Source of the DNA: Nonomuraea gerenzanensis
GTDB lineage: Bacteria; Actinomycetota; Actinomycetes; Streptosporangiales; Streptosporangiaceae
Assembly: GCF_020215645.1 (NCBI RefSeq)
Contig: NZ_CP084058.1
Location: 9,796,001 to 9,860,000, forward strand
Length of the DNA stretch: 64,000 bases
Reading direction: 5' to 3'
In this document: positions 53,089 through 64,000 of the stretch, one piece after another
Layout: every line of letters begins with the position of its first letter
How positions within the stretch are numbered: position 1 is the first letter of the stretch
Notes under the pieces: generated by a model
The model's database searches: none
The model's input: the letters and a program-made list of their open reading frames with translations, nothing else
Told to the model about the DNA's origin: nothing
Position numbers and translations under genes: made by a program

Positions 53089-54481
53089 GTGATTGCGACG
53101 AGTGTCTTAACGCTTCCCTGGCTCCCTGTCGGCAGCCTGGCCCAGGCCACACCCACACCACCCGGATATGCAGACCCCGCCACGGGCACCTGGCTGATGA
53201 GTGCCATCGACTTCTCCGAGGACGGCTTGCTGATCACCCGCACCCACACCGCCGGTCAACGCGGAGATCCCGTCCGGGCCAACGAGCGCATGCTGGGACC
53301 CGGCTGGCAACTGCAGCCGCTGGGCGGCATGCTGGGCAACCGACTGCATGACCACAGCGATCACGGCTTTGTCGTGCTGGACCTCGCTTCTGGCACCGAG
53401 TCTCACCGCTACCTCGCCGATCCGTCCCGGCCAGGGGCCTTCGTGCACGCCGGCGGTCTCATCGTGCGCAACAGCGACGACACCTTCACCCAGACCGACG
53501 AGACGGGCCTGATCGTCACCTGGTCTCGGGTGCACGGCCACGTGCTGCCCATCTCGGTGGGCCTGGCCGATGGCGACTTCCAGAGCGTCACCAACGACGT
53601 ACACCGCCGAGTGCGCCGTCTGGCCTCCCCCGCCACTCCCGGAGCGGACTGCCGGGAGCCTGACCCCGCATCATGCTCCACGGCCACCTTGATCTATGCC
53701 GACAGAACCACCGCCACGCCATCCGCGCCAGGCGAGGTAACCGGCCTGCTCGCGTCGATCAACTACGACGCCGCCGGCGACACGCCACCGGTAACGGCTC
53801 TCACCTATCGCTACGACGCCAGCGGACATCTTCGCCAGGTACGCGATCTGCGACGGCCAGACAAAAATCCTGAACGTCGCTTCGTATACGCCTACTCGGC
53901 AGACGGCGACATCACGAAGATGACCACCACGGAGGAGGGGTCATGGCACCTCACCTACTCTTCCCCGGGCACCTTGGCGAACGCGGCGCGGCGCACCATA
54001 CGCCTCGGCGCCCGAGCCTGTCCCACTCCCTATGCCGCCGACTACATGCTTCGCGGCATGTGCAAGACCAGCGTCGACGTGCGCCAGGGTGCGAGCAAGG
54101 TCATGCGGCCCCCGTTCTGGAAAGCGACACTGACCGGCGGGTCGGTGATGGGTATCACCAACGACGGCTGCAGCGCCCCATCATCGGCAACAAGCCCACC
54201 TACTGGCTGGACTTCCGCGCCGCATGCGACTCCCACGACTACGGTTACGGCCTGATCCGCAACAGCCTGAACGGCGATCGAAACGGCCTGGACCGCTCCC
54301 AGCGCACCCACGTCGACGCTGTCTTCCTGACCATCATGAAGGAGAACGCATCTGCGCCGCCATCACCGGCACAGTCGCCGACCCTTTTCGCGGCACCCAG
54401 TCGTCCAAACGCTCCATCTGCCTCAGCTACGCCAACACCTTCTACAAGGCCGTCCGAGCCAAGGGCGACGGCGCACTCTGA
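53089..54481 (+). pseudogene. RHS-type protein with C-terminal phospholipase A2 domain, frameshifted
   Basis: The first frame (53089 to ~54176) encodes RHS/YD-like repeats (LTYRYDASGHLRQVRDLRRP, YAYSADGDITKMTTTEEGSW), then MGITNDGCS. The next frame continues PIIGNKPTYWLDFRAACDSHDYGYG, where the HD pair is the catalytic motif of bacterial phospholipase A2, up to AVFLTIMKE. A third frame, from ~54345, finishes with ITGTVADPFRGTQ and YANTFYKAVRAKGDGAL. Two apparent one-base deletions therefore interrupt it (or sequence errors). Intact, it would be a ~460-residue secreted toxin acting on membrane lipids. The N-terminal shell is short for an RHS protein. Confidence 0.65.
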
Positions 54482-57092: not shown

Positions 57093-57308
57093 CGTTGTCC
57101 GCAGGTAAGAGTGTGATCCTCCATCGGTGTGGCTCTTGCTCAGTGGCCTGGACGATCAAGCGGTGCGGGCATGTCCGTCTTGCCGGTGCCGGACGCACGG
57201 GAGGCCACGTTCCACCCTGCCGGAATTGTAGAGAGGTTGTAGTGCATGCGTAGAGGCGCCGATGACAATCGACATCGCAACTTCCTCACAGCCGAAAGGG
57301 GGTTCAAC

Positions 57309-57404
57309 ATGAAGGCTGAGAGCAAGCCGGTCAAGAAGGTTTCGCTGCAGATCCGCAAGCTGGAGAAGGTCGAGACCACGTCTTGGCGCGATGGCGGCGG
57401 CTGA
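57309..57404 (+). CDS. Putative RiPP precursor peptide ending in Gly-Gly-Gly
   Basis: The peptide has 31 residues. It starts MKAESKPVKK, continues with a basic amphipathic helix-like leader and ends SWRDGGG. AAAGGGGG at a proper spacing before the ATG at 57309 supports this start; an in-frame ATG at 57246 would give 52 residues but lacks a good ribosome site. The candidate core is the C-terminal segment with Thr-Thr-Ser-Trp and three glycines. An E1/ThiF-type gene and an M50-type protease follow. A C-terminal Gly-Gly is the form used by ThiS, MoaD and ubiquitin for adenylation, so the tail may be the activated site (inference). Confidence 0.65.
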   Translation: MKAESKPVKKVSLQIRKLEKVETTSWRDGGG

Positions 57405-57412
57405 ACAATAGC

Positions 57413-57449
57413 GCATCGGCCGGCCGGGCATCGCCTGGTCGGCCGATGC
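57413..57449 (+). terminator. Attenuator-like hairpin between precursor and ThiF genes
   Basis: GCATCGGCCG (57413-57422) and CGGCCGATGC (57440-57449) form a perfect 10-bp stem, followed by TCGTTTCCCCC. It begins 9 bp after the precursor stop and ends 36 bp before the ThiF start. Partial termination here would give more precursor than enzyme, as in many RiPP operons. Confidence 0.6.
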
Positions 57450-57484
57450 TCGTTTCCCCCGAAATTCTCAGCTGAAAGGCCGTC

Positions 57485-58555
57485 GTGCTCCGCCCGAAGA
57501 TCAAAAGCGTACACCAGCCCGTCGCCCTGCCCGGCGACCGCATCATCATCGGCACGATGCAACTGGGCGTCTCCTCCGAGATCCAGGACGACGAGGACGG
57601 CACGATCGCCAGGCTCATCACGCTCATGGACGGCACGCGTACGATCGACGAGATCTGCGCGGCCTGCCCGGACGTCGATGAGCAAGACGCTCGCGAGGTG
57701 ATCGCGGGCCTGATCGGCCACGGTTTCGTGGAGGACGCCGCCGCCCCCCTGCCCGTCGGCCTCACCGAGCGCGAGGCCGCCCGCTATGAGCCGTCAAGGC
57801 ACTTCTTCTCCTGGATCGACACCAGCCCCCGCAGCTCTCCGTACGACGTCCAGGCCCGCATCAAGCACGCCAAGGTGGCGCTGCTCGGCATCGGCGGCAC
57901 CGGCTCCGCGGTCGCGGCCGGGCTGGTCTCCAGTGGCATCGGGGCGCTGGCCATCGGCGACTTCGACACCGTCGAGGAGCCGAACCTCACCCGGCAACTG
58001 CTCTACAGCGAGGCGGACATCGGGCAGCCGAAGGTGGACAGCGCGGTGGCCAGGCTGCGCGCCATGAACAGCCTGGTGGACGTGACCGGCACCGCCCTGA
58101 AGGCGAGTGGCGCCGATGACATCGCCAAGCTGATGGAGGGGTGCGACGTCTTCGTGCTCTGCGCCGACGAACCGCAGCCGGACATCATGCTCTGGACCAA
58201 CGAAGCCGCGCTGCGCACCGGCACCCCCTGGTTCGTCAGCTTCTACACCGGGCCGATGGCCGTCGTCGGGTCGCTGATCCCGGGCGAGACCGGCTGCTTC
58301 GCCTGCCTGCAGCGCCAGGAGGACCAGCGCGAGTACCGCTCCGAGGGAAGGCCGCTCACCGCCGAACGGCCGAACGCCGTGATCGCGGCAAGCGCCAACA
58401 TCAGCGGCCATCTCTGCGCTCTCGAGACGATGTATCACCTCGCCGGGCTGCCCGCGCAGACGCGCGGCAGGTTCTTCCACTGGAACTACGCCATGTGGAC
58501 CCACTCGTACTACATCGACGTTCCCCGCTACGACGACTGCCCGGCCTGCTCGTGA
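57485..58555 (+). CDS. E1/ThiF-family adenylyltransferase with leader-binding-like N-terminus
   Basis: The protein has 356 residues. Residues ~1-90 form a small winged-helix-like region (LITLMDGTRTIDEICAACPDVDEQDAREVIAGLIGHGF) similar to the PqqD/RRE part of TOMM ThiF-like proteins that bind leader peptides. The ThiF core has GIGGTG at 135-140, GDFDTVEEPNLTRQ (Arg170 as the ATP-contacting arginine), Lys183 in GQPKVD and Asp228 in CADEP. Two CxxC pairs (271/274 and 352/355, the latter in CPACS) should bind structural zinc. The catalytic Cys of E1 enzymes is not obvious. It probably adenylates a peptide C-terminus. The GTG start at 57485 follows GAAAGG. Confidence 0.85.
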   Translation: MLRPKIKSVHQPVALPGDRIIIGTMQLGVSSEIQDDEDGTIARLITLMDGTRTIDEICAACPDVDEQDAREVIAGLIGHGFVEDAAAPLPVGLTEREAARYEPSRHFFSWIDTSPRSSPYDVQARIKHAKVALLGIGGTGSAVAAGLVSSGIGALAIGDFDTVEEPNLTRQLLYSEADIGQPKVDSAVARLRAMNSLVDVTGTALKASGADDIAKLMEGCDVFVLCADEPQPDIMLWTNEAALRTGTPWFVSFYTGPMAVVGSLIPGETGCFACLQRQEDQREYRSEGRPLTAERPNAVIAASANISGHLCALETMYHLAGLPAQTRGRFFHWNYAMWTHSYYIDVPRYDDCPACS

Positions 58556-59799
58556 TCACCACCAGCAGCCGGGTCGACCTGCACCCTCTGATCTCCCGTC
58601 CCGACGACGACGATCCGGACGTCATGGTCTTCGGCCGGGCGGAGATCGGTGAGTACATCGAGCTGCCCACGGTGTACGGGGAGGCGCTCCGGCTGCTGGG
58701 CGAAGGCCACCCGGCCGGTGCGGTCGAGAAGCGCATCGCCGATGAGCAAGGCGCCGAGATCGACGTCGCCGAACTCGTCGAAGCCGCCACCGGTCTGGGG
58801 TTCATCCGCGCGATCGACGGGGAGCCGGTGCCCGACCCCGCTACGGGCGCCCCGCGCAGCCATTTCCCATGGCTCACCGCACGGCACGTCGGCTGGATCT
58901 TCGGTCTGCCGATGAAGGTCCTGTGGGCGGCGACCACGGTGGCGGCCCTGGCGGCCCTCGTCATGCGGCCCGAACTCGTGCCGACGTACGAGCATTTCTT
59001 CTGGAGCGACTATGTCGGCCTGGCGGTGCTGGTCAACACGGCGATGATGTCGGTGGCGATCAGCGCCCACGAGATGATGCACCTCATGGCGGCCCGCTCG
59101 CTCGGCACGCCGGGGCGGATCGGGTTCGGCACCCGGCTGTACACCCTGGTCGTGCAGACCGACGTCACCGGCGTGTGGGGCGTGCCCAGGCGCCGCCGCT
59201 ACCGGGCCTACCTCGCCGGGATGACCTGGGACTTGTTCCTCATGGCCACGATCATCCTGCTGGTGGCGTACGTGCCGATGCCGTCGCTGGCCGCGGCGTT
59301 GCTGCAGGCGCTGCTCGTGACGGTGCTCATGACCATCCCGTTCCAGCTCCAGGTCTACATGCGCACGGACCTGTACTACGTGCTGCGCGACCTGCTGCGC
59401 ACCAGCAACCTCTTCGACGACGGCCTGGCGTACGCCAAGTACCTGCGAGCCAAGGTGTGGGCCGCGGTGCGGCGGCGTCCCCCGCCTGCGGAGGATCCGA
59501 CCACCGGTCTGGACCCGCACGAGCGGCGGGCCACCCGCGTCTACGCTGTCGTCCTCGTGGTCGGAGGGACCTTCGCCCTCGGCAACTACGCCCTCTTCGC
59601 CATCCCGATCGCGATCGAGGCGGTGCTGCGCGCGGTGGACGCCCTCGCCGGCTCCTTCACCGGCGGGCCGATTCTCCCGGCGATCGACTCGGGCCTGCTG
59701 ATCCTCGTCGAGGGCGGCATCCAGGTGCTCTTCGTGATCACCTTCATCCGCACCCACCCGCACTGGTTCGGCCGGATCAGCCGCCGAGCAGGTCGGTGA
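58552..59799 (+). CDS. M50-type membrane metalloprotease with PqqD-like N-terminus
   Basis: This 415-residue protein overlaps the ThiF stop by four bases (GTGA). Residues ~30-95 (LPTVYGEALRLLGEGHPAGAVEKRIADEQG, then LVEAATGLGFIRAI) look like a PqqD-type winged helix. The rest has about six membrane helices with the zinc motif HEMMH at 173-177 and a later Asp in LAGMTWDLFL (Asp227) as likely third ligand, as in YydH-type and site-2-like peptidases. It would cut or export the modified peptide at the membrane. The shared winged helix with the ThiF protein suggests both bind the same leader. Confidence 0.8.
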   Translation: MITTSSRVDLHPLISRPDDDDPDVMVFGRAEIGEYIELPTVYGEALRLLGEGHPAGAVEKRIADEQGAEIDVAELVEAATGLGFIRAIDGEPVPDPATGAPRSHFPWLTARHVGWIFGLPMKVLWAATTVAALAALVMRPELVPTYEHFFWSDYVGLAVLVNTAMMSVAISAHEMMHLMAARSLGTPGRIGFGTRLYTLVVQTDVTGVWGVPRRRRYRAYLAGMTWDLFLMATIILLVAYVPMPSLAAALLQALLVTVLMTIPFQLQVYMRTDLYYVLRDLLRTSNLFDDGLAYAKYLRAKVWAAVRRRPPPAEDPTTGLDPHERRATRVYAVVLVVGGTFALGNYALFAIPIAIEAVLRAVDALAGSFTGGPILPAIDSGLLILVEGGIQVLFVITFIRTHPHWFGRISRRAGR

Positions 59800-59915: not shown

Positions 59916-60490
59916 TCAGCTGCTGAGTGCGCTGGAGAGGGTGACCACCGCACCGACGAGGAGGGCCACCAGCACCACGTTGCGGAAACGATCCGGGTTG
60001 ATGCGGCTGAAGACCGCGTTGCCGGCGAACCACCCCAACCGCACGACCGGCAGTCCCACCAGGCCGATCCAGATCGAGTGGGAGTTCACCTGGCCGGCCA
60101 CGGCGAACCCGACCAGGCTGAGCACGCTGGTGCCGGCGAACATCGCCGAGAGGGTGGCGCGGAACTTCGCAGGGTCATACCCCATGCCCTGGAAGGCGGC
60201 GATCGTCGATGGCCCGTTGGTGCCGGTGGAGGTCGAGAGCGCGCCGGAGACCCGGCGCCCACCAGCACGGAAACATTCCCGGGCACCTTCACCCGCCGCC
60301 ACACCATGACCGTGCAGCCCAGGACTCCGATCCCGATCAGCACGGTGAGCACTTGCGGGGACGTCACCGCGTACACCCAGAGGCCGAGCGGCATGCCGGT
60401 CATGGCGATCACGGCGATCACGGTGATCTTCCACTCGGCGTGGTGACGTTGACGTACGGCGATCGTGACGGTCCTGGCCAGGGCGGACAT
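59916..60490 (-). pseudogene. Truncated, frameshifted TSUP (TauE/SafE) permease
   Basis: The right part (60490 to ~60250) encodes KITVIAVIAMTGMPLGLWVY and LTVLIGIGVLGCTVMVWRRV. After a frame change near 60250 the left part reads RRVSGALSTSTGTNGPSTIAAFQGMGYDP and three further helices to the stop. This is the C-terminal two thirds of a TSUP anion exporter; the first ~70 residues are missing. Non-functional. Confidence 0.65.
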
Positions 60491-60599
60491 CGTGGTTGCG
60501 CCTGCCGATGATCACATCCATCCAGGTCATCGCGCTGCGAGGGCTTCGCGTGGCGTACGCGAGCTCCGGTCACCCGGGAGACGGAAACGCGTACGGCAG

Positions 60600-60995: not shown

Positions 60996-63900
60996 CTACC
61001 GCCCCCCGCAGGACCGAGCGACAGTGACGTTCTCGAACGAGCTCTCCGTGGATGCGTGAAGCCCGACGCCGCCGCTGCGCACAACGGTGTCGCGACCCTT
61101 CAGGATCTGAACGCCGTTCAACGTCACGGTGATGCGGTCACCGTGAATCGCCGCACCCAGTCGCACGGGACCTGTCAACGGGTTGCTGATGGACGCCTTG
61201 GCCACTGTGACCGGACCCGACGCGTGAGCCTCGCGGATGATGCTCGCGTACTGGGTTCCGTCGCTGGTCTTGCCGACGTGGATCCGATACCCGTACGCGT
61301 CCGTGGTGTCTCGCAGCGAGATTCCCGCGTTACCGACGGATCCGTCGATCGTGACCGTGGTCTCCACGACATGGTCGCACGCCTCGGAGAAGCGCGTCGG
61401 CAGTGTCGAGTCGGCCAGTACGTGCGCCCGGCCACCGGCAGGCGGCTGGAGGTGCAACTTGCCCGAGGCGACGGACACCGACCCTGTCATTCCTCGCCAA
61501 CTGGCCTGATCGAGCCCTTCCCTGATCACGATGTTGTCGAAGGTCGCGGCCCGCCGATGGGTGAAGGCGGCGGCACCACCCGTCGGCAGCTGTCCGTCAT
61601 CCGCGGAGATCGACGTGTCGCCGACCTTGGCGCTCAGATGCCTCCCGATCGCGGATACGACCAGCTTGTGCGGGACGTTGGCGCCGCTCGGCAGTGCGGT
61701 CTCCGCGAGAACCTCGGTCGTCGAGTCGTAGATCTTCACGAGCTTCAGCGTCGCTCCCGACGTGGAGTTGAGCACTTCGGCCCGGTAGTAGTTGCGGGAA
61801 TTGTGATAGCGGAACGCGAGACCGGTACGGGCCGTCGTCTGGCCGCGTACCCCGGGAACGATGTCCGCGGCCATGACCACGTCATCGGGTACGTCCTGCA
61901 GCGCCGCGAACGACACCATGTCCGCAGTCGAGGTCTGTGCCAGCTGCGTGTCCGGCTGTGCGCCGGTCAGCGCCCAGGTCCCCTGGACCGGCGTCCAGCC
62001 GCCGAAGGATCCGTTGAAGTCATGGACGGTGCGATCCAGGCCGACCTCGTCGAACTCGTCGTTGAGCACGGGTGCCGGGGCGAAGTGTTCCTCGAGTGAC
62101 ACGGTGATGAGGTTGCCCGTGCGGGTGAACGCGATCGGGGTGTCGTTCACCGTCACCGCGTTCGCGTTCGGCGCGTTGATGGAGAGGATGCCGGTGAACG
62201 GGTCCCCGAGCGAGATCCGGGCGGTCGCGCCGCGCAGTTCCACACTGACATCGGACACCGGTGCGGATGCGCTGATGACGGTGTCGTCCTGATCGATCAG
62301 CGACGACCCTCTGGTCAGCGCGTACCTGGTGAGCCCGCCGCCCGAAGCACGCTCGAGGTAGGCGGTCTCCGCGTTGGTCGCGGCGGCTCCGAACGCCCTC
62401 GACGAGGGAGTCGCCTCGCGCGAAAGGTAGAAGCGTCCGGTCGCGTCCGGCAGGGTGATCTCCATCGCCGTCGCCACGGAGTGACTCACCCCGGGCATGG
62501 CGATGCGCTTCGCCGTCACCGAGGGCGCCGCGCCGGCCCGGCCGGGAACCACGACCGTGTCCAGTCCCGTCGGCCCTGTGGAGGACCAGTCGTAGGACAG
62601 GTAGTCGACGTTGGTGAGCACCTGCTCGCCGACGCGTACGGCGCCATCGTCGTGGACCGTGGGGGTCACCGCGGCGCCGGGCGTCGCCACCGGGATGAGC
62701 CGCACGCCGGCGACGGGTGCGGCTCCTGGCACGGTGTCGAACCCGACCGTGGCGACCTTCGTCGCCGGGTTGACGGTCACCGGATCACCGGGGAAGTGCC
62801 AGAGCTGCCGGTAGTCGTGCGCGGCGGTGTCACCGGTGAGGGCGTCGGAGACCACCCAGAAGCCGGGCTTGACGAAGTAGACAGCGCGATCGTGCTCGAC
62901 CGGCCGGTAGCCCATCGCCGCACCGCGGTAGATGTCGAGGCCCGCGTTCGAGCGCCACAGCGACGTTGTGCGGGGAACGCCCTTCTCCTGCGGGAGCCCG
63001 TCGACCTCGATGGTGTTGTGCGCCTCGGTCCTGCGGCGCATCCACTCGTTCGTTTCAGTCGGGCTGTAGTCCCCCACCCCGGAGTCGACGATCAGCGGAC
63101 GCCCGTACGCCGCCATCACCAGGCTGAGGTCGTCCGGATGCCGATGCGAGGCGGTGTAACTGGAGTTCTGGTTGTTGATCAGCATGTACCGGGCATCGGC
63201 GTCCCACCCGGAACGCTGAACCGCGAAGCTGATCGGAAACACCGTGGACGGCAGCGTCGGGGCGGTCCCCTGCGTCCGGCCGGAGGCGACCCAGGTGAAA
63301 TCGGGCCAGGAGTTGCGTACACCGCTCCTGCGAATGGCCGACGTACCCGCGTCGTTGTTCGGCGTGTCGCCGATCGCCGCGGGTTCCAGATTCGGCTGAC
63401 GGGTCGCGAACAGCGAATCCGCGATCCAGTCCGCCGCCTGGACGAGCGCATCGGGAAGCGTTCGCCCGTTGGCATCCCCGACCGCTATGACGGAGTTGAG
63501 GATGTCCGCCACGTATGCCTGATAGTTGAACGCCGGTTCGCGGTACACACCGTCGCCCTTCAAGTACGCGCGCAGGAACCGCTCGGCCGAGCGCACCGCG
63601 AACCACTCCGAGCCAGGCGATGACGAGAACTCGGGCAGGAACACGGCCGCCGCGTAAACGGAGCGGGCCATCGACACGTACCAGTTGTTTCCGATATGTA
63701 TCTGCAGCGCGCCGACGAGGAAGTCCGTCGTGGCGTGCACGCCGGACAGGTACGCCACGAGATCGGTCGCGTCGATGCCAGGATCGGCCCGGAACACGGA
63801 GAACGCGCTGACCAGCTGGGCGAGCCGCTTGGCCGCCGACAGATTGCGGTTCTGCGGCCAGCTCTGATTGTCGGCGAAGAAGTCCAGCGAGATGTCCATC

Positions 63901-64000
63901 CACGCCGCCGCGTACGCCGCACGCTTGGCCGGGTCGCTCTCGGACACGTAGGCGTACGTCAGTTTGGGCATGAACGTGAAGTCGCTCATCAACGTCTGAG
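60996..64000 (-). CDS. Heparinase II/III-like polysaccharide lyase, 5' partial
   Basis: At least 1000 residues are present and the frame is open to the window edge, so the N-terminus is missing. The first ~270 residues are a helical toroid typical of alginate/heparinase lyases (AWMDISLDFFADNQSWPQNRN). Next comes the heparinase II/III signature region, SSYTASHRHPDDLSLVMAAYGRPLIVDSGVGDYSP and TEAHNTIEVDG (catalytic His/Tyr area), then beta-sandwich sequence. Two C-terminal concanavalin-like domains follow (residues ~640-830 and ~840-998; AFRYHNSRNYYRAEV, GISLRDTTDAYGYRIHV). It cleaves an acidic polysaccharide outside the cell. A signal peptide should lie beyond the edge. Confidence 0.85.
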   Translation of the reverse strand, partial: QTLMSDFTFMPKLTYAYVSESDPAKRAAYAAAWMDISLDFFADNQSWPQNRNLSAAKRLAQLVSAFSVFRADPGIDATDLVAYLSGVHATTDFLVGALQIHIGNNWYVSMARSVYAAAVFLPEFSSSPGSEWFAVRSAERFLRAYLKGDGVYREPAFNYQAYVADILNSVIAVGDANGRTLPDALVQAADWIADSLFATRQPNLEPAAIGDTPNNDAGTSAIRRSGVRNSWPDFTWVASGRTQGTAPTLPSTVFPISFAVQRSGWDADARYMLINNQNSSYTASHRHPDDLSLVMAAYGRPLIVDSGVGDYSPTETNEWMRRRTEAHNTIEVDGLPQEKGVPRTTSLWRSNAGLDIYRGAAMGYRPVEHDRAVYFVKPGFWVVSDALTGDTAAHDYRQLWHFPGDPVTVNPATKVATVGFDTVPGAAPVAGVRLIPVATPGAAVTPTVHDDGAVRVGEQVLTNVDYLSYDWSSTGPTGLDTVVVPGRAGAAPSVTAKRIAMPGVSHSVATAMEITLPDATGRFYLSREATPSSRAFGAAATNAETAYLERASGGGLTRYALTRGSSLIDQDDTVISASAPVSDVSVELRGATARISLGDPFTGILSINAPNANAVTVNDTPIAFTRTGNLITVSLEEHFAPAPVLNDEFDEVGLDRTVHDFNGSFGGWTPVQGTWALTGAQPDTQLAQTSTADMVSFAALQDVPDDVVMAADIVPGVRGQTTARTGLAFRYHNSRNYYRAEVLNSTSGATLKLVKIYDSTTEVLAETALPSGANVPHKLVVSAIGRHLSAKVGDTSISADDGQLPTGGAAAFTHRRAATFDNIVIREGLDQASWRGMTGSVSVASGKLHLQPPAGGRAHVLADSTLPTRFSEACDHVVETTVTIDGSVGNAGISLRDTTDAYGYRIHVGKTSDGTQYASIIREAHASGPVTVAKASISNPLTGPVRLGAAIHGDRITVTLNGVQILKGRDTVVRSGGVGLHASTESSFENVTVARSCGGR

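Follow-up and report, generated by a model that had tools for sequence, protein, structure and literature searches.

What kind of product is made by a locus that has only a very short peptide gene, one ThiF-like enzyme and one membrane protease? The question is raised by a stretch of 64,000 nucleotides from Nonomuraea gerenzanensis (contig NZ_CP084058.1, positions 9,796,001 to 9,860,000), called the window below, in which three such genes lie together on the forward strand. The precursor gene (57309-57404, stop codon included) encodes a peptide of 31 residues, MKAESKPVKKVSLQIRKLEKVETTSWRDGGG, and the ribosome-binding site AAAGGGGG is located at 57295-57302, 6 bases 5' of its ATG. It is followed by the gene of a ThiF adenylyltransferase of 356 residues (57485-58555, GTG start) and by that of an M50 intramembrane metalloprotease of 415 residues (58552-59799, GTG start), whose start codon sits in a GTGA overlap with the ThiF stop codon. 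All of these elements, including the good ribosome site, had been described in an initial annotation of this DNA, and all were confirmed. Judged from the sequences, the cassette appears to be a new actinobacterial variant of the ribosomally synthesized and post-translationally modified peptides (RiPPs) made by ThiF-like adenylyltransferases. Three features that mark this group are present, namely a RiPP recognition element (RRE) fused to ThiF, an intact ATP/Mg site and an adjoining conserved precursor, and a minimal RiPP cassette is the overall explanation that we favour with somewhat better than even confidence.

Conservation of the cassette and its precursor

Related loci were pooled from protein searches of whole genomes (a running count of 1,389 genomes, some of them counted more than once) and from a scan of named genomes, the latter giving 53 loci that consist of 40 relatives (L056-L095) and 13 generic ThiF loci. 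With a tblastn threshold of at least 290 bits, identical segments being merged and near-copies kept separate, 68 distinct ThiF proteins of 45-100% identity were obtained. Below this cut lie L162 (288 bits), which has both the precursor and the M50 gene, and L094 (208 bits), which is without the precursor motif. An open reading frame (ORF) with the HExxH motif of M50 is found directly downstream of ThiF in all 68 loci, and a short precursor lies 59-345 bases upstream of ThiF in 66 of them; the latter count was 63 under a stricter length filter, and three more were then recognised. The two loci that have no precursor belong to N. jiangxiensis (L018) and to an Actinophytocola metagenome-assembled genome (L164), and in the N. 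jiangxiensis genome (G023) a precursor-like stretch with a broken core lies 11 kb from ThiF on the opposite strand. The conserved unit of precursor, RRE-ThiF and M50 protease is found with all three parts in 66 of the 68 loci, and on this point the initial annotation was right.

Within the genus, 16 of 54 genomes have a ThiF of this family (E below 1e-150). With E<=1e-85 as the limit, it is present in 21 of 300 genomes from the Micromonospora chalcea family, 3 of 297 from the Saccharothrix carnea family and 11 of 38 from the Kribbella antibiotica family. The ThiF of the window shares 97% identity with proteins listed under Nonomuraea rubra and N. thailandensis. The genome of the window has a further cassette at C1:5.537 Mb (G000:C1:5536953-5538020; L002, L036), whose core, INRGGASG, is different, and three other Nonomuraea genomes (G006, G021 and G049) also have two family ThiF genes each.

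The motif by which precursors were found contains LE..ETT, and conservation of ETT is therefore partly due to selection, whereas the arginine and the last glycine discussed below lie outside it. The leader motif, when followed by a stop codon 3-25 residues later, has a single occurrence in the 64-kb window and in each of 37 of the 40 named relative loci (none in L066, L081 and L094), and it was found neither in the 174 kb of the 13 generic ThiF loci nor in any of 3,400 shuffled upstream stretches. A profile built from 34 precursors was also run over 53 genomes of the genus. It finds the peptide of the window in its own genome with E=2.2e-12 and matches 18 genomes, comprising all 16 with a family ThiF, one of them N. 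jiangxiensis with its displaced and broken stretch, and 2 of the 37 others. In one of these two (G048) the match adjoins a sister-family ThiF. In the other (G001; L186, G001:C1:1180658-1180732) the precursor is lost after ETTGLR, the tail of an M50 gene follows directly and no ThiF is nearby; we read this locus as a cassette decayed by deletion.

The leader has a basic N-terminus followed by [IV][RK][KR]LE[KRN][VIL]ETT, or in summary form [KR]-L-[EA]-[KRN]-[VIL]-E-T-T. When the second Thr is taken as T(-1), L falls at -7, V/I/L at -4 and E at -3. The core was set after ETT because this register matches that of the daptide leader, L(-7)..[M/VIL](-4)E(-3) with the cut at -1, in which L(-7) and M(-4) are reported to be essential and proteolysis takes place after P(-1) (PMC10036551). 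For the window the leader is MKAESKPVKKVSLQIRKLEKVETT and the predicted core is SWRDGGG. Its arginine (precursor residue 27) and its C-terminal glycine are encoded, by coordinates derived from the sequence, at 57387-57389 and 57399-57401, respectively.

Precursors are 23-46 residues long, with cores of 6-22 residues, 46 of which are distinct. Exactly one Arg is found in every core (66 of 66 precursors, 46 of 46 distinct cores), a property that the initial annotation had overlooked. No other universal side-chain nucleophile exists among the 46 distinct cores, of which 17 contain Cys, 11 Thr, 10 Ser, 5 Trp, 3 Lys and 1 Tyr. The Arg codons are CGC in 51 loci, CGT in 10 and CGG in 5, although base composition limits this test. 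From Arg to the end there are 5 residues in 36 precursors, 3 in 19, 4 in 10 and 6 in 1, and the last residue is Gly in 61, Ala in 4 and Ser in 1. When the core features are mapped on a maximum-likelihood ThiF tree with 66 proteins, the minimum numbers of changes are 3 for the last residue, 4 for Trp, 5 for Gly-Gly, 10 for the Arg-to-end spacing, 16 for the penultimate residue and 24 for the first core residue. A Gly-Gly requirement, as first predicted, does not hold, since this ending is seen in only 13 of the 66 precursors and 7 of the 46 distinct cores, and since the tree requires no fewer than 16 changes at the penultimate position but 3 at the last; the free variation considered for the terminal glycines applies to the penultimate one and not to the last. 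Clade 2 (GCR...CG; Kribbella and part of Micromonosporaceae) is a single group on the ThiF tree (97/97). Within it the distance from ETT to Arg grows, in L143 and L169 as far as an inserted run of Gly, but 5 residues always follow the Arg, and for this reason the important unit seems to be the segment from Arg to the end.

A sister set of 31 more distant ThiF loci (60-288 bits, without L162, and with 1.5-kb flanks for most) was also considered. A leader-motif peptide is found near 12 of them, 9 of which also have an M50-like HExxH frame (the sister loci include L119, L120, L122, L123, L125, L024, L133, L027 and L025). Their cores have no Arg, as in AFSQGNST, GWSQPSGGSSN, TTSSNSVGN, QTYSGNSNS, CACHEDVA, QACPANNPGCGAG and others; some sister families end in Asn as in microcin C, and some have two or three precursors. 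Therefore, the larger group shares leader and protease, while cores and probably chemistries differ; the shared leader supports the border after ETT and leaves the wider group without a single rule. One Arg together with a terminal Gly is the mark of the family of the window.

The RRE-ThiF enzyme and the M50 protease

The RRE-like N-terminus proposed for ThiF is borne out. PqqD (PF05402) matches in 39 of 62 relatives (best 1.8e-6), and the PaaA crystal sequence aligns with the enzyme from residue 3 (residues 3-205), which spans this domain. The RRE covers about residues 1-90 and the adenylation domain about 120-356 (PF00899, E=1.8e-40). When a profile of 15 ThiF relatives was compared with solved structures, the values were 1.6e-39 for MccB, 2.3e-31 for PaaA, 9.4e-27 for MoeB and 6.2e-26 for ThiF; MccB and PaaA, the closest by this measure, share the RRE-ThiF layout. 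Eight positions do not vary among the 62 relatives (G135, G137, G138, G140, D159, D161, Q171 and D228), and two more, R170 and K183, are retained in 61 of them. The spacing of R170, K183 and D228 (13 and 45) equals that of R167, K180 and D225 in EnfB, matched by numbering and not by alignment, and these EnfB residues are reported to be important (PMC12250964).

The loop cysteine of MoeB has no counterpart in the profile alignment, and a Cys anywhere in residues 275-309 was found in 5 of the 62 relatives, at scattered positions. These results speak against thiolation in the ThiS/MoaD manner, one of the outcomes named in the initial annotation. Two CxxC pairs (271/274 and 352/355) presumably hold zinc, as in MoeB. 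MccB itself is reported to form no thioester (PMC12250964). The sequence thus points to a ThiF of the MccB/PaaA type, with an intact ATP/Mg site and without the thiolating cysteine of the ThiS type. Activation of the peptide at its C-terminus, which was also predicted, is the best-supported chemistry in view of the ATP site and the kinship with MccB and PaaA. Proteins of this kind are usually annotated 'TOMM precursor leader peptide-binding protein', but two findings disfavour a docking-only role as partner of a thiazole/oxazole-modified microcin (TOMM) enzyme: the ATP site is intact, and neither the recurring neighbours nor the scanned ORFs of the window include a YcaO. Separately, the phage family PHROG 19840, whose function is not known, matches 57485-58555 over residues 5-336 with 3.8e-38, and phages or prophages may carry RRE-ThiF genes.

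The protease of the window has HEMMH at residues 173-177 and RTDLYY at 271-276, and H173, E174, H177, R271 and D273 are invariant in 71 M50 relatives. PF02163 is matched by 67 of the 71 at E<=0.1, and by the protein of the window at 7.7e-4, under the curated cut-off. The NCBIfam model daptide_HExxH (NF041824) matches 16 of the 71 (best 1.6e-11), the RseP model 21 (best 0.0051) and the YydH/LiaK model NF058609 only 1, weakly (0.048).

Proposed maturation and its rivals

In the maturation that we propose, the leader motif would very probably be bound by the RRE of ThiF, and the enzyme would, with high likelihood given its intact site and its closest relatives, adenylate the C-terminal carboxylate, nearly always that of Gly, with ATP/Mg. 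We see an even chance that the activated end is then captured within the peptide with loss of AMP (a net loss of water), so that a small side-chain-to-tail ring would be formed. The M50 protease would probably recognise L(-7), [VIL](-4) and E(-3) like the daptide enzyme, cut after ETT and free the product at the membrane. As ring partner we favour Arg, a possible but rather doubtful assignment, which would give a ring of 4-7 residues and a two-residue tail in clade 1. The choice is made because no side chain other than that of Arg, which stands 3-6 residues before the C-terminus, is shared by all cores, and because the described ThiF-like RiPP enzymes activate a carboxylate that is then attacked by a family-specific nucleophile; Trp, Cys, a backbone amide and a succinimide nitrogen have been described in this role (PMC12250964, PMC12150305). 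Taken as a whole, a family in which ThiF acylates the single Arg with the peptide's own C-terminal Gly, giving acylguanidine macrocycles that are released by the RRE-M50 protease and perhaps act as signals with specificity from the variable residues, is a tentative proposal. If true, such a macrocycle, with its exocyclic tail and ring, would be shaped like the staphylococcal autoinducing peptides. The product probably acts, once secreted, as a signal or antibiotic, and we lean weakly to a signal because the cores vary around a fixed chemistry and four Nonomuraea genomes have two cassettes.

Several points weigh against this proposal. Guanidine is a poor nucleophile, and we found no report in the literature of a ThiF-like enzyme that acylates Arg. 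Five of the 66 precursors end in Ala or Ser, the Arg rule does not extend to the wider group, and no conserved transporter or receptor was found. The initial annotation was right about a membrane metalloprotease, but the PqqD-like N-terminus that it gave to this protein is less secure, being matched weakly in 13 of 71 relatives (best 0.0023), and a profile comparison of the ThiF and M50 N-termini gives a probability of 6% (E=0.0058); an RRE at this place is likely, though weakly supported. Also, Arg could instead serve recognition, transport or activity, and EnfB can amidate the activated end with outside amines (PMC12250964).

The last point leads to C-terminal conjugation, in which ThiF would activate the terminal Gly, an outside amine, nucleotide, lipid or amino acid would be joined to it, and Arg would serve recognition or activity only. 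Besides the amidation by EnfB, MccB joins a nucleotide (PMC12250964), a terminal Gly suits intermolecular transfer, and the cores have no universal nucleophile besides Arg. On the other hand, no donor or tailoring gene is common to the cassettes, the commonest neighbour being a regulator, and the MccB chemistry needs a terminal Asn, which is absent in all 66 precursors; we consider conjugation unlikely. A ring closed through a backbone amide or another atom outside Arg, with Arg positioning the core in the active site, seems quite unlikely to us. EnfB is described as closing a macrocyclic imide with a backbone amide (PMC12250964), and the variable Arg-to-end spacing of 3 to 6 would suit such a ring, but anchoring alone would not demand exactly one Arg per core, and imides are labile. 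A role of Arg as an anchor like that in MccA is unsupported, since in MccA Thr3 and Asn7 matter and other positions are more permissive (PMC12250964). Trp as the nucleophile, hinted at by IndF and by the core of the window itself, was rejected for the family in view of its presence in only 5 of the 46 distinct cores, and a Cys thiolactone is possible only in clade 2, with Cys in 17 of the 46.

The remaining two explanations are much less likely. In pearlin pathways the M50 enzymes TglG and TmoG clip C-terminal residues (PMC10885120), and the peptide could likewise be a scaffold whose end is built up before M50, as a carboxypeptidase, clips off the modified residue. This is very unlikely, as the genes that recur around the cassette include neither a peptide aminoacyl-tRNA ligase nor another tailoring enzyme, and M50 here resembles the daptide enzyme. 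A carrier of the ThiS/MoaD or ubiquitin-like kind, with its Gly tail converted to a thiocarboxylate or joined to targets, is suggested by the ThiF/E1 fold and by the GGG end of the window's peptide, and it is scarcely credible: a peptide of 23-46 residues is too short for the ubiquitin fold, and PADLOC matches only the E1 part of E1-E2 models. Gly-Gly carrier function with thiolation was rejected, with the Gly-Gly end in 13 of 66 precursors and no conserved E1 loop cysteine.

Known relatives, surroundings and significance

The initial annotation knew of no characterised system of this exact composition. A comparable minimal cluster has nevertheless been published, the ind cluster of Streptococcus pneumoniae with a precursor (IndA), the ThiF-like IndF, a peptidase (IndP) and a transporter (PMC12150305). 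It has the same short precursor, RRE-ThiF and protease with C-terminal activation, the spacing of Q167 and K179 in IndF (12) equals that of Q171 and K183 here, and DTT-x-Trp of IndA resembles ETT-x-Trp of the window's peptide. IndF joins W6 to I9, 3 residues apart in a ring that spans 4 residues, compared with 3-6 from Arg to the end here. The ind cluster differs by its Trp and terminal Ile, its M16 protease and its transporter, whereas Arg, terminal Gly, M50 and no shared transporter are found here (PMC12150305). Trp three residues before a terminal Ile, the hallmark of the indolylamides, is not a property of our family, in which Trp occurs in 5 of 46 cores and the last residue is Gly, Ala or Ser in all 66 precursors. 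In enterofaecin, the (V/I)RKA of the EnfA leader resembles [IV][RK][KR]L and the R/K/D spacing of EnfB is equal, but the core is WWIVI, four transporter proteins are present and M50 is not mentioned in the available part of the review (PMC12250964).

PaaA acts on a side-chain Glu of its core, a core type absent here. Microcin C, in which MccB needs the terminal Asn and adds a nucleotide (PMC12250964), also represents a core type absent here, with C-terminal Asn in 0 of 66 precursors. For the daptide protease MpaP/DapP an RRE fused to an intramembrane M50 has been proposed; in daptides the C-terminal residue is always Thr and undergoes oxidative decarboxylation, and the available text mentions no ThiF (PMC10036551). 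A C-terminal Thr occurs in 0 of our 66 precursors. M50 membrane proteases likewise occur in the RiPP clusters of epipeptides (EpeP/YydH, for which a role in both cleavage and export has been proposed) and of pearlins (TglG), and both pathways carry other modifications (PMC10885120). As for an E1-E2 anti-phage system, no E2 partner was found, PADLOC matches the E1 stretch alone, and M50 and the peptide match nothing in it.

A GC-rich hairpin lies between the precursor stop codon and the ThiF start. In the window it has a stem of 17 bp and a loop of 3 bases (57413-57449, forward strand, z=-4.1), and when each locus was compared with 60 dinucleotide shuffles, its fold was the more stable one with z<-2 in 58 of 66 loci and with z<-3 in 35 of 66. 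It is likely an attenuator or messenger RNA (mRNA) stabiliser. RNA elements of this kind in RiPP operons often maintain a surplus of the precursor message, and the hairpin probably holds the precursor mRNA above the enzyme mRNA.

Beyond ThiF and M50, the commonest neighbour is a BTAD/SARP regulator in 13 of 42 loci, while about 2.5 loci are expected by chance (from 268 in 72 Mb, a comparison made with different search methods and on related loci). None is found near the cassette of the window, and a conserved regulator for the cassette was rejected, the association being limited to subclades. AfsR/SARP-type (BTAD) genes lie up to about 0.6 kb upstream of the cassette or directly after it in L070, L071, L072, L093, L074, L079 and L095. 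The statement of the initial annotation that no YcaO, radical SAM, kinase or lanthionine enzyme is seen agrees with the 11 neighbouring ORFs scanned (part of those in 42222-63989), in which no further RiPP enzyme was found. Around the cassette there are a short RHS/YD-repeat-like protein (53089-54255, forward), probably a remnant of a larger one; a TauE/SafE-like frame (59916-60530, reverse), which matches only the second half of the Pfam profile, is overlapped by another frame and has the look of a damaged gene; and a heparinase II/III-like protein of 997-998 residues (60996-63992, reverse), which runs to the window end.

No system matching an actinobacterial ThiF-M50 combination or an Arg...Gly core was found in searches of an open-access library. 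Nonomuraea, Micromonospora, Kribbella and M50 are nowhere mentioned in the ThiF review (PMC12250964), and the available parts of the RRE-Finder paper and of a 2025 RRE paper contain no passage on an actinobacterial ThiF-M50 cassette. The IndF paper presents a network of 27,400 RRE-ThiF fusions, several groups of which might encode new chemistry, and this network may include the family of the window (PMC12150305).

Only a small number of reactions by ThiF-like RiPP enzymes are understood, and those in the available text of PMC12250964 and PMC12150305 concern Gram-negative bacteria, bacilli and lactic acid bacteria. The present cassette defines a family in actinobacteria that has three small genes and dozens of naturally occurring cores, and whose rule of one Arg and a terminal Gly is sharp and can be tested. 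Its conservation in many soil actinobacteria, together with this rule, suggests small modified, perhaps ring-shaped peptides. If Arg is indeed the nucleophile, a new peptide cross-link would be formed; if it is not, the cassette would still provide a compact leader-guided enzyme for C-terminal activation with a matched leader protease.

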